Under the pieces are notes generated by a model that saw only the letters and a list, made by a program, of their open reading frames with translations, did not search any database and was not told the origin of the DNA. This document shows, piece after piece, positions 10,076-22,914 of a DNA stretch of 64,000 nucleotides. Both the position numbers and the translations under genes were made by a program. Within the stretch, counting starts at the first letter, position 1. Each line of letters begins with the position of its first letter. Origin of the DNA: Halalkalirubrum salinum (GTDB lineage: Archaea > Halobacteriota > Halobacteria > Halobacteriales > Haloferacaceae); NCBI RefSeq assembly GCF_005543295.1, contig NZ_SRSG01000010.1:1-64000 (forward strand). The letters are read 5' to 3'.

Positions 10076-13000
10076 TCAGTCGTCGCCGGTCGACATCGCA
10101 CTGGCGTCGACGCGGGCGTCGATCGACGTTTCAGCTGATTCGGGCAGTTCGTGACGCACATCTGCGCCGCGACCCTCTTCGATGACCTGTGCGTACGCGT
10201 CTGGGAAGACCCGCACGAAGTGTTGGCGTTCGGTCTCCCAGGATTCGAGCAGTTCTTTTGCCTTTTTGCTATCGGTGTAGGTCGCATGGTTTTCGATTAA
10301 CCGTGCGAGCATCGCTTCGTCTTTCTCGGTAAGCGTCTCCGAGAGCGACACCATCCCGGTGTTGAGCTTCGGCTCGAGTTCGCCGTCTGGATCGTAGACG
10401 TACGCGACACCGCCGGACATCCCGGCACCGAAGTTGCGACCTGTCTCACCGAGTACCGCAACCGCGCCGCCGGTCATGTACTCACAGCCGTGGTCACCGA
10501 CTCCTTCGACGACGGCTTTGACGCCGGAGTTTCGGACAGCAAAGCGCTCGCCAGCGACGCCGTTGATGTACGCTTCACCCTGGGTCGCACCGTACAGCGC
10601 GACGTTGCCGATCAAGATGTTCTCGTCGGCCGCGTAGCCAGCGGTCTCGGGAGTGTTTATTACGAGTTTGCCGCCCGAAAGCCCCTTGCCGACGTAGTCG
10701 TTTGCCGCTCCGGTGAGCGACATCGTGACGCCATTTGCGAGGAACGCACCAAAGCTCTGTCCGGCAATCCCGTCGAAGTCGATCGCGATCGTGTCGTCGG
10801 CGAGCCCTTCGGCGCCGTATCGTTTCGAGATCTCGTTCGAGAGCATCGCGCCGGCCCCGCGATTGACGTTCGAAATGTCCGTTTTGATCGAGACTGGCGC
10901 GCCGTTGTCCAGCGCCGGGGCAGCCTTCTCGATCAAGTCGTGATCGAGATGCGTCTCAATATCGGCGTGGTGTTGCTCTCTGACTTTGATCCGCTGTTCG
11001 CCAGCGGTTTCGGTAATGACCGTCGAGAGATCAAGGTGTTTGGCCTTCTCGTGGTCGGTGATTCGCTGGCTGAGCAGTTCGGGCCGGCCGATCATCTCGT
11101 CAAGACTGGTAAAGCCCAGTTCAGCCATGATCTCGCGAAGCTCCTGGGCGATGAACGTCATGTAGTTGATGACGTGATCTGGCTGGCCGGGGAACCGCTC
11201 GCGTAACTTCTCGTTTTGGGTCGCGACGCCGACCGGACAAGTGTTGGCGTGACACTGTCGGGCCATTACACAACCTGCGGTGACGAGCGAAGCCGTCCCG
11301 AAGCCGTACTCCTCGGCACCGAGCAGCGCGGCGATCGCCACGTCTCGACCCGTCTTCATCCCGCCGTCGACGGTGACGCGGATGCGATCGCGAAGCCGTG
11401 TCGCACACAGCATCTGGTTGGCCTCCGCGAGGCCGAGCTCCCACGGCAGGCCGGCGTTCTTAATTGAGGTCTTCGGCGATGCACCCGTCCCACCGCTGTG
11501 TCCGGAGATGTGGACGACGTCGGCATTGGCCTTCGCGACACCGGCGGCGATCGTCCCGATTCCCGCCTCAGAGACGAGCTTCACATTGATATCTGCCTCT
11601 GGATTTGCAGCCTTCAGGTCGTGAATGAGCTGTTTGAGGTCCTCGATCGAGTAGATATCGTGCAGCGGCGGCGGCGAGATGAGCCCGACGCCCGGCGTCG
11701 CATACCGAACGTGTGCGATCATCTCGTTGACTTTCCGGCCCGGCAGGTGGCCACCTTCGCCGGGCTTCGATCCCTGGGCCATCTTGATCTGAATCTCATC
11801 CGCGGAGGTGAGGTACTCAGAGGTCACGCCGAAACGTCCCGACGCGACCTGTTTGACACTGCACTCTTTTTCAGTCCCGAATCGCTCTGGGGGTTCGCCG
11901 CCCTCGCCGGTGTTTGACTTCCCGCCAAGGCGGTTCATCGCCATCGAGTTGTTCTCGTGAGCCTCCGGTGAGATGCTGCCGAGACTCATCGCGGCCGTCG
12001 TGAACCGAGAGACGATGTCTTCCACCGGTTCGACATCCTCGACAGGGACCGACGTGCGATCGGAGTCGAATTCCAACAGCCCGCGGAGGGTCTGAAGGTT
12101 CTCGTTTTGCTCGTTGATCAACGCGGCGAACTCCGTGTAGCGCTCGTAGTCGCCCGATCGGACCGCCTGCTGGAGCGTACCGACGGTCTGTGGATTCCAC
12201 TGATGGTAGATCCCTGTGGTGCGGTGTTCGTACTCACCTTGGGTTTCGAGATCTGGGTCCGCACCGAAGCCAATCGCGTGGCGCGTCCGAAGATCAGATT
12301 CGAGCTGTTCGAGGCCGATCCCCTCAGTGCGAATCTCAGTGCCCTCGAAGTACTCCGAAACGAGACCTGAATCGAGCCCGACCGCCTCAAAGATCTGTGC
12401 GCCCTGATAGGACTCGACCGTCGAGATCCCCATTTTGGCCATGATCTTCAAGAGGCCGTGTTCGAGCGCGTGGATGTACGATTCGATCGCCTCGCTCTCG
12501 TCGGCACCATCCGGACCGGCGACAAGGTCGCTGATCGTCTGGTAGGCAAGATACGGGTTCACACCGCCCGCGCCGTAACCGACGAGCGTCGCGATGTGGT
12601 GAACTTCCCGCGGATCGCCAGATTCGACGACAAGCCCGACATCTGTTCTGAGGCCGTGGCGAACCAGGTCGTGGTGTACTGCACCGGTTGCCAGCAGACT
12701 CGGAATCGCAATGCGATCGGTGGCGATATCGCGATCGGACAGAACAATGATGTCCGCGCCCGCGTCGATTTCCGCGCGAACCGACTCCCGGAGCGATTCG
12801 ACTGCAGTTTCGAGATCGTCCTCGGGATCGTATGTCATCGACACCGTCGCGCTCTCGAAGCCGTCGACCTGCCGTGAGAGGCCCTTGATCGAGGCCGTCT
12901 CTTCGTCGGTGAGGATCGGGGAGTCAAGCACGAGTTGCCGGGCGTGTTCTGGTGTTTCGTCGAGGAGGTTTCGCTGCGCGCCGAGCCGCGATTGGAGGCT

Positions 13001-14626
13001 CGTCACCAGCTCTTCGCGGATATAGTCGATCGGCGGGTTCGATACCTGCGCGAACAGCTGTTTGAAGTATGTAAACAGCGGCCGATTGAACTCAGAGAGC
13101 ACCGAAAGCGGCGTGTCGTCGCCCATCGAGCCGATCGGGTCCTTTCCATCCGTCGCCATGGGTTCGAGCAGGTGGTTCAGCTGGTCGGTCGTGTAGCCGA
13201 ACGCAGCCTGATGCGCCCGCAGCGAGTCGACTTCTCCCTGTGGAAGCTTGCTGTCTCCGGCAACCTCCTCAAGTGATGCCTGGTATTCGTCGACCCACTC
13301 ACCGTATGAGTCCTCAAGGAGTCCATCAAACACCTCCTCGTCAGGGATGACGCGGCCTTCCTCGGGGTCGGCCATGAAAATCTGTCCGGGCTTGAGGCGA
13401 CCGCGCTCTTCGATCTCGCTCGGGTCGGTGTCGAGTGCGCCCGCCTCGCTGGCGAGAATCAACCGACCGTCGGTCGTCACGTCGTAGCGACACGGCCGGA
13501 GGCCGTTACGGTCGAGTACCGCCGCAACCGCGTCTCCGTCAGTCGCAGCGACGAGGGCAGGACCGTCCCACGGCTCAACGAGGCTCGCGTGGTAGTCGTA
13601 CCACTCGCGGCGGGCGTCGTCCATGAGCTCGTCGTTTTCGTAGGCCTCGGGGATCAACATCCGAAGAACGTGTGGGAGCTCTCGACCAGCGTTCAACAGT
13701 AACTCGACGACGTTGTCCACGCTGGCAGTGTCAGATTGGTCGGCGATCGTGATCGGTTTGAGCGTGTCGATCTCCTCGCCGAACGCCTCGTGTTCGAGCG
13801 CCGATTCGCGGGCACGCATCCAGTTGACGTTCCCCTGAATGGTGTTGATCTCACCGTTGTGGATGATCTTGCGATACGGGTGTGCGAGGTGCCAGGCTCC
13901 GAGTGTGTTTGTGGAGAACCGCGCGTGAACGAGGACGAGTTCGCTTTTGACACGCTCGTCCTGCAGATCGAGATAGTACTCTCGGAGCTGCTCGCCTTTG
14001 AGCAGGCCCTTGTAAACGAGTGTTTTGCGGTCAAGTGAACAGACGTAGAACCGGCCCGACCCCTCGATCGATTCGGCGGCGTGTTCGAGCGCTCGCCGGC
14101 CGACGTACAGCGCGCGATCGAACGCTTCGATGTCCATTGAATCCTCGGCGGGCGTGACGAACGGCTGACAGACAACCGGCTCGGAGTCGAGGGCCGTTCG
14201 CCCAAGATCCGCATCGCCGGTCGGAACCGTCCGCCAGTGGAACACCGCAAGGCCGTATTCTGCCAGCGTCAATTCAAAACAGTCGATGAGTTCCGCCCGG
14301 ACCGCCTCGTCAGTCGGCATGAACACCGAGCCGACAGCGTACGTCTCAGGAATGTCACCAACTTCGTCAGCAAAGAACTCATCTGGGCGCTGGATCATAA
14401 TGCCTGCGCCATCACCGGTGTTTTCCTCTGCGCCGGTGGTTCCACGATGTTCGAGATTTTCGAGCAGATCGATCGCGTCGGAGACGACTGAATGTGACGG
14501 GCCGTTCTCAAGATCGATGACCGCACCGACGCCGCAGTTCGATCGATCGTCGGTTGGGTCCGCGAGGCCATGCGTCGGCTCCGCTACAGAGCCCGATACA
14601 TGGGTATCACTGTGTGGCTTGGTCAT
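10076..14626 (-). CDS. gltB: Glutamate synthase, large subunit
   Basis: This enzyme makes two glutamates from glutamine and 2-oxoglutarate. The 1516-residue protein has the full family order: N-terminal class II glutamine amidotransferase (nucleophile Cys in SNCGVGAV near 31), central domain, FMN-binding synthase domain (about 850-1200) with the iron-sulfur Cys set CVMARQCHANTCPVG near 1115, and a C-terminal GXGXG beta-helix. No small subunit is in the window; haloarchaeal enzymes may use ferredoxin or a distant partner. I chose the ATG at 14626: a TATA-like box at about 14648-14655 is 25 bases upstream. The frame extends 22 codons further. Confidence 0.96.
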   Translation of the reverse strand: MTKPHSDTHVSGSVAEPTHGLADPTDDRSNCGVGAVIDLENGPSHSVVSDAIDLLENLEHRGTTGAEENTGDGAGIMIQRPDEFFADEVGDIPETYAVGSVFMPTDEAVRAELIDCFELTLAEYGLAVFHWRTVPTGDADLGRTALDSEPVVCQPFVTPAEDSMDIEAFDRALYVGRRALEHAAESIEGSGRFYVCSLDRKTLVYKGLLKGEQLREYYLDLQDERVKSELVLVHARFSTNTLGAWHLAHPYRKIIHNGEINTIQGNVNWMRARESALEHEAFGEEIDTLKPITIADQSDTASVDNVVELLLNAGRELPHVLRMLIPEAYENDELMDDARREWYDYHASLVEPWDGPALVAATDGDAVAAVLDRNGLRPCRYDVTTDGRLILASEAGALDTDPSEIEERGRLKPGQIFMADPEEGRVIPDEEVFDGLLEDSYGEWVDEYQASLEEVAGDSKLPQGEVDSLRAHQAAFGYTTDQLNHLLEPMATDGKDPIGSMGDDTPLSVLSEFNRPLFTYFKQLFAQVSNPPIDYIREELVTSLQSRLGAQRNLLDETPEHARQLVLDSPILTDEETASIKGLSRQVDGFESATVSMTYDPEDDLETAVESLRESVRAEIDAGADIIVLSDRDIATDRIAIPSLLATGAVHHDLVRHGLRTDVGLVVESGDPREVHHIATLVGYGAGGVNPYLAYQTISDLVAGPDGADESEAIESYIHALEHGLLKIMAKMGISTVESYQGAQIFEAVGLDSGLVSEYFEGTEIRTEGIGLEQLESDLRTRHAIGFGADPDLETQGEYEHRTTGIYHQWNPQTVGTLQQAVRSGDYERYTEFAALINEQNENLQTLRGLLEFDSDRTSVPVEDVEPVEDIVSRFTTAAMSLGSISPEAHENNSMAMNRLGGKSNTGEGGEPPERFGTEKECSVKQVASGRFGVTSEYLTSADEIQIKMAQGSKPGEGGHLPGRKVNEMIAHVRYATPGVGLISPPPLHDIYSIEDLKQLIHDLKAANPEADINVKLVSEAGIGTIAAGVAKANADVVHISGHSGGTGASPKTSIKNAGLPWELGLAEANQMLCATRLRDRIRVTVDGGMKTGRDVAIAALLGAEEYGFGTASLVTAGCVMARQCHANTCPVGVATQNEKLRERFPGQPDHVINYMTFIAQELREIMAELGFTSLDEMIGRPELLSQRITDHEKAKHLDLSTVITETAGEQRIKVREQHHADIETHLDHDLIEKAAPALDNGAPVSIKTDISNVNRGAGAMLSNEISKRYGAEGLADDTIAIDFDGIAGQSFGAFLANGVTMSLTGAANDYVGKGLSGGKLVINTPETAGYAADENILIGNVALYGATQGEAYINGVAGERFAVRNSGVKAVVEGVGDHGCEYMTGGAVAVLGETGRNFGAGMSGGVAYVYDPDGELEPKLNTGMVSLSETLTEKDEAMLARLIENHATYTDSKKAKELLESWETERQHFVRVFPDAYAQVIEEGRGADVRHELPESAETSIDARVDASAMSTGDD

Positions 14627-14822: not shown

Positions 14823-15587
14823 GTGCGCATTGAGAACAGTTTCATTCCGGTTCGCGGCGTCGGCGAACGGACCGAGCGAGGGCTCTGGGAGCAGGGGATC
14901 ACAACCTGGGACGCGTTCGATCGCGCTGCGGTTGGGAACACGACGGGCCAGCGGATCGAGTCGTTCATCGAAGAGGCAAGCACGCGGCTCGATCGGCGAG
15001 ACACACAGTACTTCGATACCGTCTTTCCAAGCAGCGAGCGGTGGCGACTCTACGAGAATTTCAGGGACAAAGCGTGCTTTTTCGATATCGAGACAACAGG
15101 TCTCGATTCGGCTCGCGATGTCGTCACGACGGTTAGCTACCATCTCGACGGCGAGACACGGACGCTCGTCCGTGGCGATACCCTAACCGCTGACGCGCTT
15201 CGGGCCGCCTTTGCAGATGCAGATCTACTCGTGAGTTTCAACGGAATTCGGTTCGATCAGCCCTTCTTGCAGGACTGTTTCGACCTGTCGATCGACACCC
15301 CACACCTCGATCTGATGTATCCGTGCAAACAACTCGGACTATCCGGCGGGCTGAAAGCGATCGAATCCGACATTGGTATTGAACGCGATCGGCCGGATAT
15401 CTCGGGACGAGACGCAGTCCGGCTGTGGCACGAATACGAACGAGGGCGCGATGGGTCGCTTGAAACGTTGATCTCGTACAACCGTGAGGACGCGGTGAAC
15501 CTCCAGCAACTGACCGATATTGTTACCCAACAGCTACACCAGAATGTTTTCGAACAGTATCGATCGACGACTAGCCAGTCGGTGTAG
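14823..15587 (+). CDS. DEDD-type exonuclease (YprB-like RNase H fold)
   Basis: A 254-residue protein with a 3'-5' exonuclease domain at about 85-240. The DEDD residues can be followed in FFDIETTGLD (Exo I), LVSFNGIRFDQPF (Exo II, Asn/Asp) and ISYNREDAVN (Exo III). The N-terminal 50 residues resemble a helix-hairpin-helix-like element (GVGERTERGLWEQGITTWD). The start is a GTG at 14823, placed 27 bases after a strong TATA box, so the mRNA is probably leaderless. Its 3' end overlaps the convergent bactofilin-like gene by 17 bases. Confidence 0.82.
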   Translation: MRIENSFIPVRGVGERTERGLWEQGITTWDAFDRAAVGNTTGQRIESFIEEASTRLDRRDTQYFDTVFPSSERWRLYENFRDKACFFDIETTGLDSARDVVTTVSYHLDGETRTLVRGDTLTADALRAAFADADLLVSFNGIRFDQPFLQDCFDLSIDTPHLDLMYPCKQLGLSGGLKAIESDIGIERDRPDISGRDAVRLWHEYERGRDGSLETLISYNREDAVNLQQLTDIVTQQLHQNVFEQYRSTTSQSV

Positions 15588-16857
15588 GAGAACCGTCCGA
15601 ATCGGATGATTCAGCGACCTCTGGGTCACGATCGTTCTCTGTCTCGGCCTTCGCGCGGTTAGCCACGATCTCACCCTCGTCGTCTATAGTCTCAGTCGCC
15701 CCGTCGTCATCCACGGTTTCAGCTTCGCCGCCGTCATCCACAGCCTCAGCCTCCCCATCGTCATCCACAGCCTCAGCCTCCCCATCGTCATCCACAGCCT
15801 CAGCCTCCCCATCGTCATCCACAGCCTCAGCCTCCCCGTCGTCATCCACAGCCTCCCCGTCGTCATCCGTGGTCTCGGTCTCCGCGCGGTCGTCTCCAGC
15901 CCCAGCGTCCCCCTCTCGCTGCACAGGCTCGCCTGAGTCAGGTGCGTCATGCGAACCATCCGGCTCCCCCGAGTCAGCTGTGTCGCGCGAATCACCCGAG
16001 TCACTTGCTGGGGCCGATCGCTTCGGCGTAATATACTGCATCTCGCCGCTCGCCTGAAGCGAGCCGGTAACATAGGCTCCCTCGTACACCGTGAGATCGC
16101 CCGCCTCGACGTTGCCGCGCACTGTTGCGTTCGGGTGCAGCGTCACCGAGCCGGTCGTCCTGACAGTTCCGATTACCTCCGTCTCAGCGCCAACTGAGAC
16201 ATCGCCGCCGCTGGCGGTAAGCCCACCAAAGATCGTGTTTCGCTCGCCGACGTCGATCGACTCGGCATTAATGTTGCCGTGGATTCGGCAGTCGTCGCCG
16301 ATCGTCGCAGGCGTATCGACGAGCCACCGATCGTCCGAGATGACCGAGCCGGCGGGGATCGTGACGGGATCGACTTCTTCGACCTCCTCGCCGGCCAGCG
16401 CAGAGGCAAACTCCTCAGCGGCATCCTGGTCGCCCAGTCGCAGTAGGTGCGAGAGCACAATAAAGTAAAACAGGTACACTGGAATCGGATTCCGGATGAC
16501 AATCCAGCCGTTGGCCTCGAATCCTTCGTCAATCTCGACATCATCGCCCACATCCAGGTCGCCAGAGACGAGGAGTCGACCGTTGATCCGGACTCGCTCA
16601 CCCACGTACGCGTCCGCTCCCACGAGGACGCTTCCGTCGACGTGACAAAACGTATCCAGTCGACAGTCGTCATCGGCCTCAATGCTGCCGCCAATCGAGA
16701 CATCCTCGCCGGCTGCGACCGTGCGGCCACGAATCCCGAGTTCTATCTCGCTGTCGCGCCCGATCAACACGTCTCCGGTGGTGACAATATCGTGCTCTTC
16801 GACCGTAGTACCGTCGGAAAGCTGGAGCGAGTTGAGCGGATCGACGCGAGATGACAC
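15571..16857 (-). CDS. Bactofilin-like polymer-forming protein with repeat tail
   Basis: A 428-residue protein. Two runs of short Gly/Val/Asp beta-helix repeats (about 15-115 and 170-270; for example DVLIGRDSEIELGIRG) match polymer-forming bactofilin-like proteins. Between them lies a hydrophobic segment (PVYLFYFIVLSHLL) that may touch the membrane. The C-terminal 140 residues are acidic and disordered, with near-perfect 9-residue repeats of DDDGEAEAV. The frame is open upstream to 17244 through a 33-bp repeat array, but TTTATTA at 16881-16887 is 27 bases before the GTG at 16857, so I take that as a leaderless start. Confidence 0.75.
   Translation of the reverse strand: MSSRVDPLNSLQLSDGTTVEEHDIVTTGDVLIGRDSEIELGIRGRTVAAGEDVSIGGSIEADDDCRLDTFCHVDGSVLVGADAYVGERVRINGRLLVSGDLDVGDDVEIDEGFEANGWIVIRNPIPVYLFYFIVLSHLLRLGDQDAAEEFASALAGEEVEEVDPVTIPAGSVISDDRWLVDTPATIGDDCRIHGNINAESIDVGERNTIFGGLTASGGDVSVGAETEVIGTVRTTGSVTLHPNATVRGNVEAGDLTVYEGAYVTGSLQASGEMQYITPKRSAPASDSGDSRDTADSGEPDGSHDAPDSGEPVQREGDAGAGDDRAETETTDDDGEAVDDDGEAEAVDDDGEAEAVDDDGEAEAVDDDGEAEAVDDGGEAETVDDDGATETIDDEGEIVANRAKAETENDRDPEVAESSDSDGSPTPTG
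15732..15862 (-). repeat. 27-bp tandem coding repeats in bactofilin tail
   Basis: About four and a half copies of a 27-bp unit, nearly identical in DNA, encode the repeated acidic nonapeptide DDDGEAEAV. Such identity suggests recent expansion by slippage. Confidence 0.85.
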
Positions 16858-16880
16858 GTTCTCATCCTGTCTCCGGGAAC

Positions 16881-16887
16881 TAATAAA
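16881..16887 (-). promoter_or_regulatory. TATA box of bactofilin-like gene
   Basis: TTTATTA on the minus strand is centred 27 bases before the GTG at 16857. It decides the start of that gene and rules out the open extension into the repeat array. Confidence 0.6.
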
Positions 16888-16913
16888 GCGTCCGGGACCA
16901 CGAATACTAGGAA

Positions 16914-17068
16914 TCTCGATCCAGCGTCCGGTGTAGATCCCAGTAGTCTCGATCCAGCGTCCGGTGTAGATCCCAGTAGTCTCGATCCAGCGTCCGGTGT
17001 AGATCCCAGTAGTCTCGATCCAGCGTCCGGTGTAGATCCCAGTAGTCTCGATCCAGCGTCCGGTATAG
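16914..17068. repeat. 33-bp tandem repeat array between divergent promoters
   Basis: Units begin at 16914, 16947, 16980 and 17013, with a partial fifth at 17046. Each contains TCTCGATCCAGCGTCCGGTG. A degenerate copy of the AGCGTCCGG core lies at 16887. The array fills the space between the TATA box of the bactofilin-like gene and that of the glycosyltransferase gene. The 33-bp period is about three helical turns, which would place protein sites on one DNA face. Confidence 0.9.
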
Positions 17069-17103
17069 TCACGACGAATTAGCAGTGACGAAGATGTATA
17101 CTG

Positions 17104-17109
17104 TTTTAT
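17104..17109 (+). promoter_or_regulatory. TATA box of aglJ-like gene
   Basis: TTTTAT is centred about 29 bases before the ATG at 17136, in favour of that start over the ATG at 17085. Confidence 0.55.
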
Positions 17110-17135
17110 CCGTCCCCCGTGCAGCATCGGACACC

Positions 17136-18143
17136 ATGACCGAGCGATCGCCTCCGACTGGACCTCCGAGCGATCCTGACGGTCCGGACGGTCCGGACGG
17201 TCCGGACGATCGGGAAGACCCAACCGTCTGTGTGCTCTTGCCAACGCTCAACGAGGCTGAGACGATCGAGGAGGTCGTCTCCGGGTACATCGACGCCGGG
17301 TACGAGCAGGTGTTTGTGATTGACGGGGGCTCCGAGGACGGAACAGATGAACTCGCCGCGGCCGCCGGTGCGGACGTTCGTCAGCAAAGTGGCTCTGGGA
17401 AAGGACAGGCTGTCAGAGAGGCGGTCGAAGCGATCACCGCCGACATCGTGTTGATGGCCGATGCTGACGCGACCTACGATGTTGAGGACGCCGATCGGAT
17501 GCTACAGCCCATCCTCGAGGGGGAGGCCGAACACGTCATCGGGAACCGCTTTGCGGACATGAAACCCGATGCGATGACGCGGTTCAATAAGATTGGGAAC
17601 CGGATTATCAACGCCGCGTTCACAGCGATCCACGGCAAACGGTATCGCGATATCCTTTCGGGATACCGAGCGTTTACAACCGAATCCTTCCGGCAGTTTA
17701 GGCTCAATGCCGACGGCTTCGGCATTGAAACAGAGATGGCCGTCGAGTGTGCCAAACGCGGGATCGACACCGCGGTCGTCCCAATCACCTACAGACCGCG
17801 CCCGCACGGATCAGATACCAACCTGCACCCGATCCGCGACGGCGGCATCATCTTTCTTGAGCTGTACCGAAAGGCGAAGACAAACAACCCGCTGTTTTAT
17901 TTCGGCAGCGTCGGGGCCGTCGCGACCGCCGTCGGGTTCGTTCTCGGACTTTACGTCATCTACGACTGGGTTGTCGCCGGTATCAGCCACGAGGTCATCG
18001 CGATCGGCTCGGTCGCGGGGGTACTGTTCGGCGTCCAACTGCTGATGTTCGGCGTGCTGTCCGACATGTTGCTGTCGTTTCACCGCGAACAGCTCGATCG
18101 GATCGATCGGATCGGCGACGATCTTGATGAGCGGTCTGAGTAA
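17136..18143 (+). CDS. aglJ: AglJ-type glycosyltransferase (GT2)
   Basis: A family 2 glycosyltransferase of 335 residues. It has the GT2 start VCVLLPTLNEAETI, the ADADATYD metal site near 107-113, and two membrane helices at the C-terminus (about 255-315). In haloarchaea this subfamily (AglJ) adds the first hexose to dolichol phosphate for N-glycosylation of surface proteins. A Pro-Asp-Gly tandem repeat (PDGPDGPDGPDD) from 9-bp DNA repeats makes up the N-terminal linker. The start at 17136 follows a TATA box. It diverges from the bactofilin-like gene across the 33-bp array. Confidence 0.8.
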   Translation: MTERSPPTGPPSDPDGPDGPDGPDDREDPTVCVLLPTLNEAETIEEVVSGYIDAGYEQVFVIDGGSEDGTDELAAAAGADVRQQSGSGKGQAVREAVEAITADIVLMADADATYDVEDADRMLQPILEGEAEHVIGNRFADMKPDAMTRFNKIGNRIINAAFTAIHGKRYRDILSGYRAFTTESFRQFRLNADGFGIETEMAVECAKRGIDTAVVPITYRPRPHGSDTNLHPIRDGGIIFLELYRKAKTNNPLFYFGSVGAVATAVGFVLGLYVIYDWVVAGISHEVIAIGSVAGVLFGVQLLMFGVLSDMLLSFHREQLDRIDRIGDDLDERSE

Positions 18144-18174: not shown

Positions 18175-18729
18175 TCAGATTGCGTCAACGAGGCGATCGG
18201 CGGCCTCTTCAACGCTGCCTTCGTTTTCGATAAACCGTACAGGTGCGTTTTGATCGCGTGCGTACTGGAGCGCCGCAGATCGATTGAGATCTTGCTCGAA
18301 GGCGATCTTGCGCTCGGTGGCTTCCGGCGTCTCACGGCTACTGTTTTGTCGTCGCTCGAGTATCGTTTCTGGACTCGCCTCAACGAGGGCGAATGTGGTC
18401 GGTGAGACGTCGTGGAGCACTTCTGCGGGAAGTCCCTGTATATAACCATCCTGCGTCTCTACTGCCAAGTGCGTTGAGAGAATGATGTTCGTCGATTCAG
18501 CCTCGTCGGCAACAAACTCGCCCGCGCGACGCTGGAGACGGCGTGTCTGTCTCTGCGACAGTCTGGCTAGGTCTCCTCGGCCGGTTGCGACACCACTCGT
18601 CGCGGCCTGTTCAAGCATGACGTCTCCGAAATTGATGAGTTTGTACCCCTCTCCGAGCTTTCGTCGAACCGTTTGACAAACGCTCGAGAGCCCAACGCCA
18701 GTAACACCGGAGACTAACGTGACAGTCAT
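18175..18729 (-). CDS. AdkA-like nucleotide kinase with altered P-loop
   Basis: The 184-residue protein follows the archaeal adenylate kinase AdkA pattern: an N-terminal P-loop, then INFGDVML, a lid-adjacent STHLAVETQDGYIQGLP segment, and EASPETILERR. The P-loop reads GVTGVGLSS, so the Lys that binds phosphate is Leu14. It may have lost kinase activity, or use another residue. The start overlaps the stop of the DUF5789-like gene by one base (TAATG), so the two are translated together. Its low similarity to canonical AdkA and the Lys loss suggest a paralog. Confidence 0.7.
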   Translation of the reverse strand: MTVTLVSGVTGVGLSSVCQTVRRKLGEGYKLINFGDVMLEQAATSGVATGRGDLARLSQRQTRRLQRRAGEFVADEAESTNIILSTHLAVETQDGYIQGLPAEVLHDVSPTTFALVEASPETILERRQNSSRETPEATERKIAFEQDLNRSAALQYARDQNAPVRFIENEGSVEEAADRLVDAI

Positions 18730-19013
18730 TAGAAACTCACCTCGCTTTCGTCGTCTTGCGGCATCGATCCTCGGTCGTCATAATACCTGCGCCCGATAAA
18801 ACTGGCCCCGACTAACATCATGAGTGTATCGTAGAGGTCATCGGCTGAATCGAATTCGTCCGTTTCAGCTCTCTCGATGACGGCTTCGATCGTCGTGCTC
18901 TCTCCGTCCGGCGGTGACAGTTCTGTACTTCCCACAGTCTCAACGACCGTATCTCGTGAGACTGGAAAATCTAGTTTCCTCGCGAACAGATCGCGAGTCT
19001 CTGGCAAGCGCAT
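18729..19013 (-). CDS. DUF5789-like small protein
   Basis: A 94-residue acidic haloarchaeal protein, probably of the DUF5789 family: LFARKLDFPVSRDTVVE, then a short acidic beta segment and a helix ending in GRRYYDDRGSMPQDDESEV. The function is unknown. I chose the ATG at 19013 because a TTTTAAATA box (19036-19044) is 27 bases upstream. An ATG three codons earlier exists. It leads a two-gene operon with the AdkA-like kinase. Confidence 0.75.
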   Translation of the reverse strand: MRLPETRDLFARKLDFPVSRDTVVETVGSTELSPPDGESTTIEAVIERAETDEFDSADDLYDTLMMLVGASFIGRRYYDDRGSMPQDDESEVSF

Positions 19014-19252
19014 ACATACCATTTCGCGTCTCGTGTATTTAAAACTGGCATTATCCTAATTATTTATCATTTAGAACAAGGCGCTGTGGAGAAGTAGTGA
19101 CAAAAACCGTCGGACAAATCTGCGGGATGGCAAGGTGGTCCATTCTCCCATGTCGTGGTGGTATTATTTGCCAATCGAGAGACAAACGGACAACTGTCGA
19201 GTACGATTTGGGCGATCGATCGGAATAAAAGAACTGAGACAGGTGAATTTGG

Positions 19253-19290
19253 CTACCGACTTTCCGCTGTTCGACCTTGTTCAAATGGAT
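19253..19290 (-). repeat. aroQ 3'-end remnant, copy 1
   Basis: Read on the minus strand it encodes IHLNKVEQR and then, after a one-base deletion, AGTCGGTAG, matching the C-terminus and stop of aroQ (IELNKVEQRESR, stop). Third-position changes relative to the aroQ in this window show it came from a diverged aroQ. It marks the left edge of the first toxin-antitoxin unit. Confidence 0.75.
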
Positions 19291-19325
19291 GAAATCTATG
19301 GTACGTTCACGGAAAAATAATCTTT

Positions 19326-19372
19326 GTGGGTAATAGTGGGTAAGACTTATCCAGAAGTGAGTCGTAGTGAGT
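19326..19372 (+). promoter_or_regulatory. Direct repeats upstream of MazEF-like pair
   Basis: GTGGGTAA occurs at 19326 and 19336, and AGTGAGT at 19356 and 19366. Both pairs are spaced 10 bases, one helical turn. They lie just before the antitoxin start and may bind the antitoxin-toxin complex. Confidence 0.4.
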
Positions 19373-19375
19373 AGC

Positions 19376-19615
19376 ATGACGAAAGTGGAGGCTCACGACC
19401 TGCGAACCAACGAGACCGACGACCGAGGTCGAATCTACCTCGGGACGGAGTACGCGAACAAGCGCGTGACCGTCGCGGTCGTCGAAGTCGAGTCTGACCG
19501 ACCCGACGAGGACGAATTAGCCGCCGCGTACCGCGAGGCTTCCGAGAGTGCCGACCATCTCGCTGAGAAGTGGAAGGGGGCATCTGACGAGGCGTGGAAC
19601 GGACTCGATGAATGA
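19376..19615 (+). CDS. MazE/AbrB-like antitoxin
   Basis: A 79-residue acidic protein. The N-terminal half (TDDRGRIYLGTEYANKRVTV) resembles an AbrB/MazE DNA-binding hairpin. The C-terminal half is a charged helix that would wrap the toxin. Its stop overlaps the start of the MazF-like gene by four bases (ATGA), the usual arrangement of type II pairs. It is expected to bind its own promoter, where direct repeats are present. The pair lies between aroQ-end copies 1 and 2. Confidence 0.75.
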   Translation: MTKVEAHDLRTNETDDRGRIYLGTEYANKRVTVAVVEVESDRPDEDELAAAYREASESADHLAEKWKGASDEAWNGLDE

Positions 19616-19965
19616 GCGATGAGACTGAGGTTCGGCGTGGCGATGTCGTAGTCGTTCGTCTCGACCCTGCCGAAGGCCACGAGATAAAAAAGACTCGACC
19701 TGCGGTGATTGTGCAAAACGATATTGGAAATCGCAACTCCAGTACGACCATCGTTGCTCCGGCGACAGGGACGCATCGAGGCTACCCATTCGAAGTGCTG
19801 GTCGAAGAGGATAGGTCACCGTTCGAGAAGGACTCCTCAGTTCGCCTCGACCAGATTCGCGTCGTCTCTATCGAAAAGCGGATTCACTCGGTCATCGGGA
19901 GTCTGAGCGAGTCTACCATGGCTGAGGTGGACGAAGCACTGAAACTGAGTCTCGGACTGGATTGA
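19612..19965 (+). CDS. MazF/PemK-family mRNA interferase toxin
   Basis: A 117-residue protein with the PemK/MazF beta-barrel pattern: RRGDVVVVRLDPAEGHEIKK, RPAVIVQND, TTIVAPATG and the end strand VRLDQIRVVSIEKR. Members cut mRNA at short sequences when the antitoxin is lost. Length and motifs are complete, so it is probably functional. It overlaps the antitoxin by four bases. Confidence 0.88.
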   Translation: MSDETEVRRGDVVVVRLDPAEGHEIKKTRPAVIVQNDIGNRNSSTTIVAPATGTHRGYPFEVLVEEDRSPFEKDSSVRLDQIRVVSIEKRIHSVIGSLSESTMAEVDEALKLSLGLD

Positions 19966-20016
19966 GTCACCGATTTCCGGGTCACCGTATGTTTTGAGCA
20001 CGACGGAATGCCGGTT

Positions 20017-20055
20017 TTACCGACTCTCCCGCTGCTCGGCCTTGTTCAAATGGAT
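20017..20055 (-). repeat. aroQ 3'-end remnant, copy 2
   Basis: The minus strand encodes IHLNKAEQRESR followed by TAA, in register with the aroQ C-terminus IELNKVEQRESR and its stop. It shares ATCCATTTGAACAAGG with copy 1, and is closer to copy 1 than to the resident aroQ. Confidence 0.85.
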
Positions 20056-20094
20056 AAAATTCACCACACACACTATTGAAACAACATCGTTGTA

Positions 20095-20117
20095 ACCATC
20101 AATTCCAATTTGATGGT
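20095..20117. promoter_or_regulatory. Inverted repeat, likely VapB operator
   Basis: ACCATCAA (20095-20102) and TTGATGGT (20110-20117) are perfect arms around a 7-base spacer. They are 35 bases upstream of the antitoxin start. ACAAC/GTTGT (20081-20093) forms a second, smaller inverted repeat beside it. Confidence 0.5.
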
Positions 20118-20151
20118 AAGATTCTTTTTCTATGGTAACGTATCTCCCTCT

Positions 20152-20397
20152 ATGTCAGCAGAGACGGATGCACAGGGACGGCTGTACATCCCGAAGGAGG
20201 TGCGCGAGAAGTACGGCCAGAAGTATCACATCGTCATGTACGAGGATAGAATCGAGCTGATCCCGGTCGCGGACGACCCACTCGCCGCTGTGCGCGAAGC
20301 GGCAGGCGAACTCCACGATACGTCCGTCGAGGAAATCCGGGAGGATATCGAGGCGGAAGCGAAAGACGAAGCTGCGGAAGCCGGTGGCGACAGATGA
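20152..20397 (+). CDS. AbrB-type VapB antitoxin
   Basis: An 81-residue protein. The first 45 residues are an AbrB swapped-hairpin domain (ETDAQGRLYIPKEVREKYG, then YHIVMYEDRIELIPV), which binds operator DNA. The rest is an acidic helix for toxin binding. An inverted repeat upstream is the likely operator. The ATG at 20152 is chosen since the preceding 14 codons do not fit the AbrB domain. It overlaps vapC by four bases. Confidence 0.85.
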   Translation: MSAETDAQGRLYIPKEVREKYGQKYHIVMYEDRIELIPVADDPLAAVREAAGELHDTSVEEIREDIEAEAKDEAAEAGGDR

Positions 20398-20780
20398 CGG
20401 TGTACGTCGAGACAGATTTCCTGCTCGCACTCGCCAAAGACACCGATTGGTTGCAAGGCTCCGCGGAGGACGCCCTCGACGAGTACGACGTCGAAACGTC
20501 GCCGTTCTCGTACCTTGAACTCCTCCTCGCCCGGGAACGGTACGAGTTCGACTACGTTCCATTGGTGGCGAACCTGCTCGAACTCGTCCCCGTGCGAAAC
20601 GAGGAAGAGAAACAGGTGGTTCTGAAAGCCGTCAACTACTACGACGAGGGGATGACGTCGTTCGACGCGTTCCACGCGGCGACGGCGGAAACACGTGGGG
20701 TGGACGTGCTCTCGTCCGAGAAAGACTACGAAGATATCGAGGTCGAACGAGTCCCACTCGAACCGATCGACGAGGAATAA
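20394..20780 (+). CDS. VapC-type PIN-domain toxin
   Basis: A 128-residue PIN-domain ribonuclease toxin. The acidic metal ligands are Asp8 (VETDFLLAL), Glu42, Asp91 (SFDAFHAATA) and Asp111 (SSEKDYEDI). VapC toxins cut specific tRNA or rRNA sites. All expected active-site residues are present. It is read with the AbrB antitoxin and lies between aroQ-end copies 2 and 3. Confidence 0.9.
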   Translation: MTVYVETDFLLALAKDTDWLQGSAEDALDEYDVETSPFSYLELLLARERYEFDYVPLVANLLELVPVRNEEEKQVVLKAVNYYDEGMTSFDAFHAATAETRGVDVLSSEKDYEDIEVERVPLEPIDEE

Positions 20781-20919
20781 CTCTGGACTGAGGATAGAGC
20801 GGCTGAAAGAAGCGTGGTACTCGCAGCGGTTGTCGTGACCGCGTGTGCGACAGACTTGCTAAAATCGACGCATCGATCGGCTAACACGTCGTTAGAAGTC
20901 CTGAAACACATTTTATCGC

Positions 20920-20949
20920 CTACTGGCTCTCCCGTTACTCCACTTTGTT
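20920..20949 (-). repeat. aroQ 3'-end remnant, copy 3
   Basis: The minus strand reads AACAAAGTGGAG-TAA-CGGGAG, then AGC CAG TAG, matching aroQ AACAAAGTGGAG-CAG-CGGGAG, Ser, Arg, TAG. One Gln codon has become a stop. Unlike copies 1 and 2, its codons match the resident aroQ. Confidence 0.7.
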
Positions 20950-21063
20950 CCGGTCTCGGACTGACGTTACAGAGTTTATATACATTGCCGCTTTCTCCTT
21001 GATCTGTCATATCAAATTAGTAGGTCGCCATCGGATGCGACCGAGTACGCGAAAGCACTTAAT

Positions 21064-21081
21064 GTAGTACACGCGTACTAC
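21064..21081. promoter_or_regulatory. Inverted repeat operator of the RHH antitoxin
   Basis: GTAGTAC (21064-21070) and GTACTAC (21075-21081) flank ACGC. The repeat lies between the A/T box near 21058 and the ATG at 21087, so a bound ribbon-helix-helix protein would block transcription start. Confidence 0.6.
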
Positions 21082-21086
21082 TAAAT

Positions 21087-21359
21087 ATGGCTCAGTCCGA
21101 TACCGCCGCCGATGGGAACGACGAGAAGGTGAACCTCCGGCTTCCGAAGGATTTCCTCGCGGATTTGGACGAGCAGTGGCAGGAGCAGGGCTACAACTCA
21201 CGCTCGGAGTTCATGCGCGAGGCCCTGCGTGACGCGGTATACGGAACTCGGCTCTCCAAGCGGGCGCTTGAAGACCTACTGGAGAGCGAACGGCAGTTCG
21301 AGGAAGATGAGACAGTGAGCGCAGAGGAAGCCCGTGAGCGGTTCGGTACGAATGAGTGA
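21087..21359 (+). CDS. Ribbon-helix-helix antitoxin
   Basis: A 90-residue protein. Residues about 15-50 (VNLRLPKDFLADLDE, then YNSRSEFMREALRDAV) form a ribbon-helix-helix DNA-binding domain, and the acidic C-terminal half should hold the toxin. The palindrome just upstream fits binding by an RHH dimer pair. It overlaps the RelE-like gene by eight bases. The start is 27-29 bases after an A/T box. Confidence 0.88.
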   Translation: MAQSDTAADGNDEKVNLRLPKDFLADLDEQWQEQGYNSRSEFMREALRDAVYGTRLSKRALEDLLESERQFEEDETVSAEEARERFGTNE

Positions 21360-21636
21360 TAACAAGTGGACGTGGGAACTCTCCGAGCGAGCAGCAGAGG
21401 GACTCGAAGCTCTGGATACTGAAACACAACAGCGAGTCCTCGACAAGCTCAACGACGTGGTGACTGACGAGTTCCGCGATCCGCCGGACTTCGCCAAACC
21501 GTTGACGGGCGCGAAGCCGTGGCAATCATTACGAGTTGGTGATTATCGAGCAATCGTCCGATTCAATGTTGAAGCACGAATGATGCAGGTCGGCGCAGTA
21601 GGTCATCGATCGTCAATCTACGACAAATTTCCATAA
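21352..21636 (+). CDS. RelE/ParE-family toxin
   Basis: A 94-residue toxin of the RelE/ParE fold: WTWELSERAAEGLEALDTE, then KPLTGAKPWQSLRVGDYRAI and the final strand MMQVGAVGHRSSIYDKF. The Arg, Asp, Tyr and His residues of this last part match RelE-type RNases. It overlaps the antitoxin by eight bases and is complete. An ATG six codons upstream would lengthen the overlap. The pair lies between aroQ-end copy 3 and aroQ itself. Confidence 0.9.
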   Translation: MSDNKWTWELSERAAEGLEALDTETQQRVLDKLNDVVTDEFRDPPDFAKPLTGAKPWQSLRVGDYRAIVRFNVEARMMQVGAVGHRSSIYDKFP

Positions 21637-21741
21637 TAGTGTGTCAGGGCCACATCGATTGAAGTTGTAACATCGTTTATCTACATCGAATGTGGAGAAC
21701 AGCTATCGGGAGGAGATTCGACGACCAAACAGACAATAAAT

Positions 21742-21754
21742 GGCCTAAAAGGCC
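21742..21754 (-). terminator. Possible terminator of aroK-aroQ
   Basis: GGCCT/AGGCC forms a 5-bp stem with a 3-base loop. Read on the minus strand after the aroQ stop, it is followed by the T-rich run ATTTATTGTCTGTTT. It would also fit the end of the convergent toxin gene. Confidence 0.4.
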
Positions 21755-21763
21755 CGTCTGAAG

Positions 21764-22051
21764 CTATCGAGACTCCCGCTGCTCCACTTTGTTCAGTTCG
21801 ATCAACAGCCGGAAGATCGCCTTGACGAGGTTCGAATCGACTTCAAATCGTTCGGCGTTCTCGCCGGCGCGGTCCATGACGACATCCTCTTGAGACTCGT
21901 CGGTCGTCGGTAGATCGTGTTCAGCTTTGACCTGCGCAACCGAATCGGCGACGTACGTTCGTCGGGCGATCAGCTCAACGATATCGTGATCGATCTCCTC
22001 AATTTCCTCGCGTAACTCCGCAAGCTCTTCTTCGGCGTGACTCTGGCTCAT
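21764..22051 (-). CDS. aroQ: Chorismate mutase
   Basis: It converts chorismate to prephenate for phenylalanine and tyrosine. The 95-residue all-helical AroQ domain shows LREEIEEIDHDIVELIARR near the start, the loop Lys in AQVKAEHDLP, and a C-terminal helix ending IELNKVEQRESR. It follows aroK with an ATGA overlap, so both are co-translated. The 3' end of this gene is the sequence copied three times in the toxin-antitoxin array to its left (19253-20949). The gene itself is intact. Confidence 0.93.
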   Translation of the reverse strand: MSQSHAEEELAELREEIEEIDHDIVELIARRTYVADSVAQVKAEHDLPTTDESQEDVVMDRAGENAERFEVDSNLVKAIFRLLIELNKVEQRESR

Positions 22052-22914
22052 AGTGTTCGTGCTCCGTGTGTTCGTGTTTCGGTCCTGATTAGGGTTCCGT
22101 CCCGTGCGCCCCAGACGGACTCGACAGCGGCGATCGCCTCGGCATCACCAACCGCGACGACACTCGGTCCAGTTCCGGATAGCGAGACACCGGCGGCCTG
22201 ATCTAACACGTCAACTGTCGCGTCGGGCTGAAATCCAAGCGCTGCGGAGAACGCGAGCCCATTGACGCTCATTGCCTCCGTGTAGCGGCTCTCACTCGCC
22301 AGCTCCTCGGCCAGTCGGGCCATCGGGGCGATCCGCTTGCATCGATCGACGTCCGCGTCGGCGCTGTAAGCGCGCTCGGGCGGCGTCCACACAGCGACAT
22401 CCCACGAAACGGTCTCGCGCGATCGCAGCGTATCTGTGGTGTTGTCGGTCAGTGTGATCCCGCCGAGCATGCTCGCGCTTGCGTCGTCGAACGCGCCGGT
22501 TACTGTCACGCCCGCATCGCGTGCCGCGGTGACGCCAAGCAGACAGGCCTCGAGTCGATCGATCGGACCATCCGCTCCGACGGACACGTCCAGCGCGTCA
22601 CACGCGGCCAACACCGCCGCGTTCGCCGCCGCGCTCGAGCTCTTCAGTCCCGCGGCCATGGGAACGTCGCTTTCGGTTCGTACGACACCCCCCTCGTCGT
22701 CGCCGAACCGATCGATCACCAACTGCACACAGCGTTCGATCAGTTCGGTATCGGCATCTGGTTCACCCGCAATCTGTCCGGTGACGGCCTCAGCGTCTGG
22801 CACCAACTCGACAGTCGCTCGCGTCTCGATGTCGATCGCGAATGCCGATCCGATGCCGGTCGCCAGCGCGTTCAGGATCGTCCCTGCGCCAGGAGCGGCT
22901 GCCCGTCCGTCCAT
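22048..22914 (-). CDS. aroK: Shikimate kinase, archaeal GHMP type
   Basis: It phosphorylates shikimate in the shikimate pathway. The 288-residue protein is a GHMP kinase: an N-terminal AAPGAGTILNALATG segment, the ATP loop PMAAGLKSSSAAANA near 92-106 typical of archaeal AroK, and a C-terminal SLSGTGPSVVAVG motif. The ATG at 22914 gives a normal family start. The upstream open frame would overlap the divergent DUF5796-like gene. It is first in an operon with aroQ. Confidence 0.93.
   Translation of the reverse strand: MDGRAAAPGAGTILNALATGIGSAFAIDIETRATVELVPDAEAVTGQIAGEPDADTELIERCVQLVIDRFGDDEGGVVRTESDVPMAAGLKSSSAAANAAVLAACDALDVSVGADGPIDRLEACLLGVTAARDAGVTVTGAFDDASASMLGGITLTDNTTDTLRSRETVSWDVAVWTPPERAYSADADVDRCKRIAPMARLAEELASESRYTEAMSVNGLAFSAALGFQPDATVDVLDQAAGVSLSGTGPSVVAVGDAEAIAAVESVWGARDGTLIRTETRTHGARTL

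Follow-up and report, generated by a model that had tools for sequence, protein, structure and literature searches.

Toxin–antitoxin cassettes at the 3′ end of aroQ in Halalkalirubrum salinum: a probable haloarchaeal system of integrase-less cassettes moved in trans

Integrons and the clusters of attC sites lacking integron integrases (CALINs) hold small cassettes in tandem, toxin–antitoxin (TA) pairs among them; archaeal integrons are covered in PMC9668308, in the main text of which 'halobacter' and 'haloarchaea' have 0 occurrences. The dif (pdif) modules of Acinetobacter, as presented in parts of PMC6449649, are small adaptive or TA modules between short tyrosine-recombinase sites served in trans; these are XerC/XerD sites of 28 bp, built around a 6-bp centre and in many cases plasmid-borne. 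Cis-mobilizable elements (CIMEs) are described in sections of PMC5704250 as decayed larger elements that lack an integrase, keep their attachment (att) sites and, together with autonomous elements, build up tandem arrays at a target gene. Archaeal integrative elements carry a tyrosine integrase and restore the end of their target gene; the targets reviewed in PMC8371274 are mostly tRNA genes, with protein-coding targets mentioned too, and its passages on the subject do not name aroQ, the paper not having been searched for aroQ by name. The literature searched, which excluded subscription papers and preprints, holds no description of the cassette system reported here. We analysed a 64,000-nucleotide stretch of Halalkalirubrum salinum DNA (the window; contig NZ_SRSG01000010.1, positions 1 to 64,000), in which the chorismate mutase gene aroQ is followed by three TA cassettes. 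In our opinion, this is probably a three-cassette array of a haloarchaeal mobile system that docks at the 3′ end of aroQ, with integrase-less cassettes moved in trans, likely by larger elements encoding an aroQ-tail tyrosine integrase that we call IntQ. The observation at this aroQ is an example of a system that occurs widely among haloarchaea.

On the minus strand of the window, the 3′ end of aroQ occurs four times, once in the gene (21765–21805) and in three downstream copies at 19253–19293, 20018–20058 and 20921–20961 (copies 1 to 3; family D1 of a repeat search), spaced 765, 903 and 844 nt apart. A 25-nt degenerate core pattern, allowing up to 3 mismatches, matches aroQ and copies 1 and 2, with 0.00 matches expected from 100 dinucleotide shuffles. 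Copy 3 is more degraded (61% to the D1 reference); it is missed by the 25-nt pattern and scores 34.7 bits with a position-specific matrix. Copy 2 reads IHLNKAEQRESR-stop. According to a Pfam scan, one TA pair lies in each interval between copies, and no PF00589 integrase occurs within the window, the sole match listed for its contig (C5) beginning at 224614. Three claims of the initial annotation are thus borne out, namely that the aroQ end recurs three times on one strand, that each interval holds a single TA pair, and that the window has no integrase; the shuffled sequences also answer its question of whether such repeats arise by chance.

The docking gene itself, a type II chorismate mutase gene (21764–22051, minus strand; Pfam CM_2, E 4.1e-19), is attB-like and has the core TGAACAA at 21789–21795. 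Adjoining it, cassette 1 (20945–21795, core to core) carries a ribbon-helix-helix (RHH, CopG-type) antitoxin (21087–21359, plus strand; RHH_1, E 4.8e-7) and a ParE/RelE-type toxin (21352–21636, plus strand; ParE_toxin, E 9.2e-6), together with a cassette-start motif that resembles TTCTTCCGGTAGCTGCTC and lies about 82–88 nt past the core (21695–21714, minus strand; 24.6 bits). Cassette 2 (20042–20951) is VapBC-like, with a presumed AbrB/MazE-like antitoxin (20152–20397) and a VapC-like PIN-domain toxin (20394–20780; PIN, E 2.1e-7), both on the plus strand. Cassette 3 (19277–20048) is MazEF-like and pairs a presumed MazE-type antitoxin (19376–19615) with a MazF/PemK toxin (19612–19965; PemK_toxin, E 2.3e-31), again on the plus strand. 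The Pfam scan assigned no family to the upstream partners in cassettes 2 and 3, which are called antitoxins because of their position and of like pairs elsewhere. Genes paired with a PIN gene in the same two-gene layout are annotated AbrB/MazE/SpoVT in plasmid records, and genes similar to the MazE-type candidate fall into one cargo cluster (24 members, 24 loci).

The repeats were initially taken for copies of the aroQ end. This is correct for the aroQ tail that each contains, but the conserved stretch extends about 35 bases of non-aroQ origin upstream of the core in 57 aligned copies, and for this reason the copies are recombination-site-like rather than mere gene ends. Copies below 28 bits had been dropped, which kept 60 of 84, and L034, the aroQ region of which matches that of L033, was also excluded; the alignment (A1) leaves out L036, the second aroQ of L100 and one L095 copy. 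The common type of this left arm ends GTATnATGGATTTCAnCTACC, and a second type is exemplified by GTAACGTCAGTCCGAGACC. A cassette (median length 1.1 kb) consists of such a conserved end, a 7-bp core, TGAACAA, between inverted half-sites, and an aroQ tail. Among the centres tested, the strongest inverted repeat coincides with TGAACAA both in the counted sites (0.401 against a mean of 0.246, sd 0.051, with a small lead over the next centre, 0.399) and, separately, in 121 aroQ genes (0.543 against 0.495 for the next centre, a larger margin than in the cassette sites). Both partners therefore show the inverted half-sites around a 6–8-bp overlap that a tyrosine-recombinase att site requires, a layout to be expected of a core site of this kind.

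As judged from the alignments, each site is a composite of a cassette-borne left end, the core, and the aroQ tail of the next cassette or of the chromosome. The three window copies, all on the minus strand and scored with R1, a sequence model of the site, can be parsed accordingly. Copy 1 (19250–19331; 57.7 bits at 19252–19327) would join the end of the MazEF-like cassette, through the core at 19277–19283, to an old chromosomal aroQ tail; copy 2 (20015–20096; 58.5 bits at 20017–20085) would join the end of the VapBC-like cassette, through 20042–20048, to the tail of the MazEF-like cassette; and copy 3 (20918–20999; 41.8 bits at 20920–20996) would join the end of the RHH-ParE cassette, through 20945–20951 with its first base changed, to a displaced aroQ tail. 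The TTCTTCCGGTAGCTGCTC-like start motif is found in 60 of 144 counted units, which represent 42 different cargo sets, and stands 80–84 nt past the core in 55 of the 144; its matrix was refined iteratively on these same data, with control stretches supplying the thresholds. The aroQ-tail divergence rises at the core in 107 pairs of loci with sites and also in 33 pairs without; the rise fits past replacement of the tail but equally weaker constraint, and is given no weight in our conclusions.

The second line of evidence comes from comparison between genomes. A genus-mate (SHRA6; G001, locus L031) has aroQ, the VapBC-like cassette, a site and then the same DUF5789 flank as the window. The RHH-ParE and MazEF-like cassettes are precisely missing from it, the alignment blocks breaking inside the sites, while the VapBC-like cassette is shared, with an identity of 91.8% over 841 nt. 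The aroQ tail in copy 1 resembles the tail/chromosome junction that ends the G001 array and, because of this, looks like the old chromosomal tail; the earlier proposal of a foreign origin for copies 1 and 2 therefore holds only part by part.

Cassettes are often more alike than the genes behind which they lie. Among 553 homologous cassette pairs between loci, which are not independent of each other, 428 show greater similarity than the corresponding pair of aroQ genes, and cassette identity exceeds 90% in 61 of the 508 pairs with aroQ less than 85% identical. In the strongest case between genera (L192 and L195), the cassettes are 95.6% and the aroQ genes 75.1% identical. The MazEF-like cassette of the window is about 94–95% identical to units in L109 (Halorubrum sp. 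CSM-61) and L187 (G063), where the identity of aroQ to that of the window is 76.9% and 77.8%, respectively. When eight cassette pairs were inspected, homology stopped no more than about 33 nt beyond the distal core in each, and on the near-core side it started at or inside the core in seven, running back into aroQ in L058/L180. In L187, the unit has about double the length of its counterpart in the window; homology starts mid-unit, and an internal site may have been lost. L213 and L176 show an inner indel difference. The initial suggestion that TA cassettes were inserted serially at the aroQ 3′ end is accordingly supported as regards insertion and the supply of a new aroQ tail, both by G001 and by the ends of between-genera homology at or near cores, but not as regards a strictly serial order. 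The outermost, MazEF-like cassette is absent from G001, yet closely similar across genera; it thus arrived late or was lost in G001, and insertion need not have proceeded serially beside aroQ.

The sites are not confined to this genus. From 80 named aroQ loci picked by AroQ similarity alone (the best 80 of 246), 73 distinct loci with at least 3 kb of downstream DNA (72 and the window) form a frequency sample, and at least one downstream site occurs in 39 of them. As listed, 21 loci have one site, 10 have two and 8 have three; L100, one of the last, is corrected to two, one of its 'sites' being a second aroQ. In a larger set of 121 aroQ genes, which includes loci chosen for having sites (L175–L214, outside the 39/73 figure), 80 have downstream sites. 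These amount to 144 counted and 142 distinct sites, one site having been counted twice and one being the second aroQ of L100; the figures for open reading frames (ORFs), cargo, inverted repeats, pairwise identity and start motifs all use the 144 counted units. All 142 distinct sites lie on the aroQ strand and 0 on the opposite one, and the single match in 951,041 upstream bases is the site of L100 viewed from its second aroQ. With the R1 model, 344 of 392 Halobacteriales genomes give a match at E ≤ 1e-6, aroQ itself counted in, and the longest array found comprises seven sites (G345). In L100 (Haloparvum sedimenti), a second shikimate kinase-aroQ pair lies beyond the first aroQ and its first cassette (10268–14550), apparently through duplication or capture of the docking gene itself.

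Plasmid records yielded 10 pattern matches, all haloarchaeal. The five examined each carry aroK-aroQ (L131–L135, from Natrialbaceae and Halobacterium sp. DL1), and in a sixth record the match falls on a gene annotated as chorismate mutase. Three of these plasmids (L131, L132 and L133) bear cassette sites too; that of Haloterrigena alkaliphila, for example, has four successive TA pairs. Viral contigs gave 0 matches with each of two degenerate site patterns, and no match was found in the phage records searched for the site.

The cargo comprises 297 ORFs in the 144 units, most commonly two per unit by heuristic gene calls, with 178 ORFs against and 119 along the direction of aroQ. Integron cassettes lie mostly in one orientation, and the aroQ-array cassettes depart from this. 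A TA-cluster member is present in 87 units (~60%; 45 of 68 in the subset formed by the window and L031–L110), whereas 57 have none; the earlier claim that the units carry only a TA pair does not hold beyond the window. The TA ORFs include 29 of MazF type in 28 loci, 19 AbrB-PIN, about 15 RHH-PIN, 8 RHH-ParE and others, where the names of clusters besides those of the window were assigned by reading their sequences. Among 25 of 121 families listed for the non-TA cargo, of which 77 ORFs were scanned, are HTH_10 regulators, SnoaL, GNAT acetyltransferases, methyltransferases, redoxin-like proteins and short-chain dehydrogenases.

Several neighbouring features of the window complete its description. 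Upstream of aroQ lies a GHMP-type shikimate kinase gene (22048–22914, minus strand; GHMP_kinases_N), at the place of which plasmid records have a gene annotated 'shikimate kinase'. The array is flanked on the chromosomal side by the DUF5789 gene (18729–19022, minus strand; PF19102). A long minus-strand ORF (15571–17244) contains two tandem repeats, one with a 33-bp unit (16914–17068; 4.7 copies, 99% matches) and one with a 27-bp unit (15670–15855; 6.9 copies).

If cassettes move, an enzyme must be sought elsewhere. In 205 kb of array sequence, no intact integrase was found with 22 seed frames and a motif scan, a check repeated in this form because a first integrase hidden Markov model had missed the known integrase of L149; only decayed fragments were found, in L045 and L213. 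The weak array matches read as helix-turn-helix regulators (query L151) and as the L045 fragment (query L153), and the IntQ model adds the L213 fragment; both fragments are decayed pieces of an IntQ-type integrase. Very long first intervals led to an integrase behind aroQ in G254 (167 bp after the aroQ match, with the next site 61 kb away) and G368 (1.2 kb after aroQ, with the next site 38 kb away). In an alignment search of 384 genomes, these two, G281 and G369 scored at least 460 bits, the next match scoring 379 bits. These four best matches of the IntQ family all sit 3′ of aroQ and group together, an integrase clade that, like the order-wide spread of the sites, lay beyond the view of the initial annotation. 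In G369, which is outside the three query rows of the search and was found as a relative, the integrase is 1.9 kb behind aroQ and a site 32 kb away. PF00589 was detected in all three proteins scanned (G368, G281 and G254), which are 36–54% identical to one another. Among loci L237–L266 (L237 being G281 and L240 being G369), aroQ lies inside the available flanks only for L238 and L239; the flank of the other 26 is about 1.5 kb or less. The lower-ranked matches in G005, G010, G013, G016, G025, G039, G057 and G241 have aroQ on another contig or more than 100 kb off. Plasmid and phage records contained no relative of the G368 IntQ.

The elements of G254, G368 and G369 are each bounded by aroQ and a cassette-type site and so have the integrase and flanking att sites of an integrative element. 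IntQ elements and cassettes terminate in the same left arm and core. In G254, the aroQ tail is foreign past the core (LNKIEQNYHIRDENDTQWDDN) and the canonical tail stands at the far end of the element. Further genes of these elements encode an Eco57I-type methylase (G369) and phospholipase D (PLD)-helicase proteins (G369 and G368), which suggests a defence cargo. Adjoining IntQ on the same strand in G254 (L227:1843–3935) and G368 (L230:2921–4996) are genes of 174 and 141–150 aa with no confident Pfam match; the three could possibly form a recombinase trio.

Other candidate enzymes were considered and dropped. An unrelated PF00589 integrase in G035 (L136:7744–8901) lies about 0.4 kb from an orphan site (~9258), far from aroQ; 16 of its relatives have no site beside them within flanks of about 1.5 kb. 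Near L085 and L147, the integrases are located past other genes and fall into another group. In the window's own genome, C5:224569–226275 (L151) is a 569-aa frame with a recombinase-like N-terminal part, and its C-terminal part has many relatives among haloarchaea; as a candidate this fusion was dropped, its matches being mostly to the non-integrase part. Canonical XerA was over the cut-off in 0 of 60 genomes, with weaker relatives in 16 of the 60 at E ≤ 1e-30.

Comparison of the sequences, in our reading, is enough to establish the sites, their boundaries, the presence and absence of cassettes, their high identity between genera and the ends shared with IntQ elements. For the process behind them, we infer a circular form, IntQ as the enzyme, action in trans and a role of the TA pairs. 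A cassette would consist of an aroQ tail that starts with the core, a cargo of, as a rule, one operon (most commonly a TA pair), and the conserved left arm, e.g., ..GTATnATGGATTTCAnCTACC. A tyrosine recombinase would exchange strands in the 7-bp core TGAACAA (aroQ codons L-N-K), which the inverted half-sites flank, and the circular cassette would thereby recombine with aroQ or with another site of the array; the incoming tail would complete aroQ, the old one being displaced to the far side. The recombinase, absent from the cassettes, would be supplied in trans, most likely by the IntQ of larger elements using the same site, and the cassettes would stay behind once these elements leave. The TA cargo probably guards the array against loss by making loss costly, a guess that draws on general knowledge of TA modules.

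Several observations weigh against this reading. Among the R1 matches listed, sites occur far from aroQ in G035, G112 (contig C2) and G265, and perhaps in G037 and G385, the contigs of which are short. Only 4 of 384 genomes have an IntQ of 460 bits or more, and at E ≤ 1e-40 no IntQ match occurs in the genome of the window itself. In the IntQ tree, all four proteins group apart at only 94/75, three of them at 100/100; the G281 integrase is about 10.6 kb from aroQ, with the far end on another contig, and G241 has a 26-kb first interval without a PF00589 match. All four IntQ elements score below zero for the start motif, and another enzyme may for this reason serve the cassettes. The elements of G254 and G368 each have a second PF00589 gene of 212–215 aa, unrelated by BLAST to IntQ or to each other, and that of G369 includes a serine resolvase; IntQ is therefore not the sole recombinase of its elements.

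A different trans-acting recombinase, host-encoded or plasmid-borne, might instead move the cassettes, with IntQ elements merely using the same docking site. The rarity of IntQ, the lack of the +82 motif in its elements, their further recombinases and the G035 integrase beside an orphan site speak for this possibility, which we nevertheless regard as a minority view: the left arm and core at the ends of IntQ elements are those of the cassettes, canonical XerA did not pass the cut-off in any of the 60 genomes, the 16 other loci with a G035-type integrase show no adjacent site in their short flanks, and the second PF00589 genes of G254 and G368 are unlike each other. It is less probable still, and in our opinion unlikely, that the arrays arose by serial integration at aroQ of elements that then decayed, as CIMEs do, to immobile TA remnants keeping their att sites. 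IntQ elements are present at aroQ, decayed IntQ pieces lie in two arrays, and accretion at att sites is a route described in PMC5704250, at least in the sections drawn on here. However, compact cassettes recur over almost their whole length at 92–96% identity in different genera, MazF cassettes occupy different array positions, the 29 MazF ORFs are spread over 28 loci, and the shared start motif is absent from IntQ elements; independent decay would not yield the same ends. Derivation in place from decayed integrative and conjugative or integrative and mobilizable elements is perhaps applicable to L045 and L213, though hardly to the cassettes shared between genera.

Two further explanations fare much worse. 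Homologous recombination or duplication of the aroQ end, with TA pairs inserted between the copies by chance, agrees with the repeats being direct and gene-derived, but the copies have a common left arm of non-aroQ origin, the repeats are short and diverged, and the edges of homology fall at the sites, so that we consider it very improbable. The least credible alternative is a true integron or CALIN of the IntI/attC type, despite the same logic of TA-rich arrays of small cassettes. The IntI model TIGR02249 had no match at E ≤ 1e-20, and none over its cut-off, in 60 genomes including the window's own, a model that in 14 control genomes matched 4, none over the cut-off. RNAalifold predicted 0 pairs for 57 site sequences and thus no consensus single-strand fold such as the attC hairpin, no scan with an attC model having been made, and the cargo is found in both orientations. 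We therefore return to integrase-less cassettes moved in trans, likely by IntQ elements, as the reading that best accounts for the array.

We also lean towards the broader proposal that this is a haloarchaeal gene-capture system that evolved apart from integrons, in which compact integrase-less cassettes with a composite site of left arm, 7-bp core, captured aroQ tail and a start motif near +82 would be stockpiled at aroQ order-wide and moved in trans by the recombinases of visiting elements. If this is true, an archaeal order has a gene-cassette system at one fixed housekeeping locus, cassette capture outside IntI/attC becomes directly testable, and the spread of TA pairs and single accessory genes between haloarchaeal genera is explained. 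Mobile cargo could then also be mapped in about half of the sampled aroQ loci, and halophile work would gain a candidate tool for site-specific recombination. Such a system would further suggest that an integron-like economy, with small passengers, the enzyme in trans and TA pairs holding the array, arose more than once.

With regard to the systems described at the outset, the aroQ arrays resemble integrons and CALINs in their tandem small cassettes, in arrays without a nearby integrase and in cassettes shared between lineages, and integrons are likewise known to include TA cassettes; unlike integrons, the aroQ arrays dock at the end of a protein-coding gene, with a 7-bp core and inverted half-sites instead of attC/attI. 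They resemble pdif modules in the small adaptive or TA modules between short tyrosine-recombinase sites and in an enzyme supplied in trans, but the site carries an aroQ tail directly after its TGAACAA core, in place of a 28-bp XerC/XerD site served by a host Xer pair, the arrays lie downstream of aroQ on its strand, and the 60 genomes gave no canonical XerA. As in CIMEs, integrase-less units with att sites on both sides (142 distinct ones) accumulate in a row, alongside autonomous elements, at a target gene; unlike the decayed elements described in the parts of PMC5704250 considered here, the cassettes are compact, recur over almost their whole length in many genera, and frequently have a start motif in common. 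With archaeal integrative elements, as portrayed in passages of PMC8371274, they have in common a tyrosine integrase and the restored end of the target gene. Since it does not pass the IntI, attC-fold and Xer-site tests made here, the array is not filed as an integron; it functions in the manner of integron cassette arrays or dif modules, with accretion of the CIME type.

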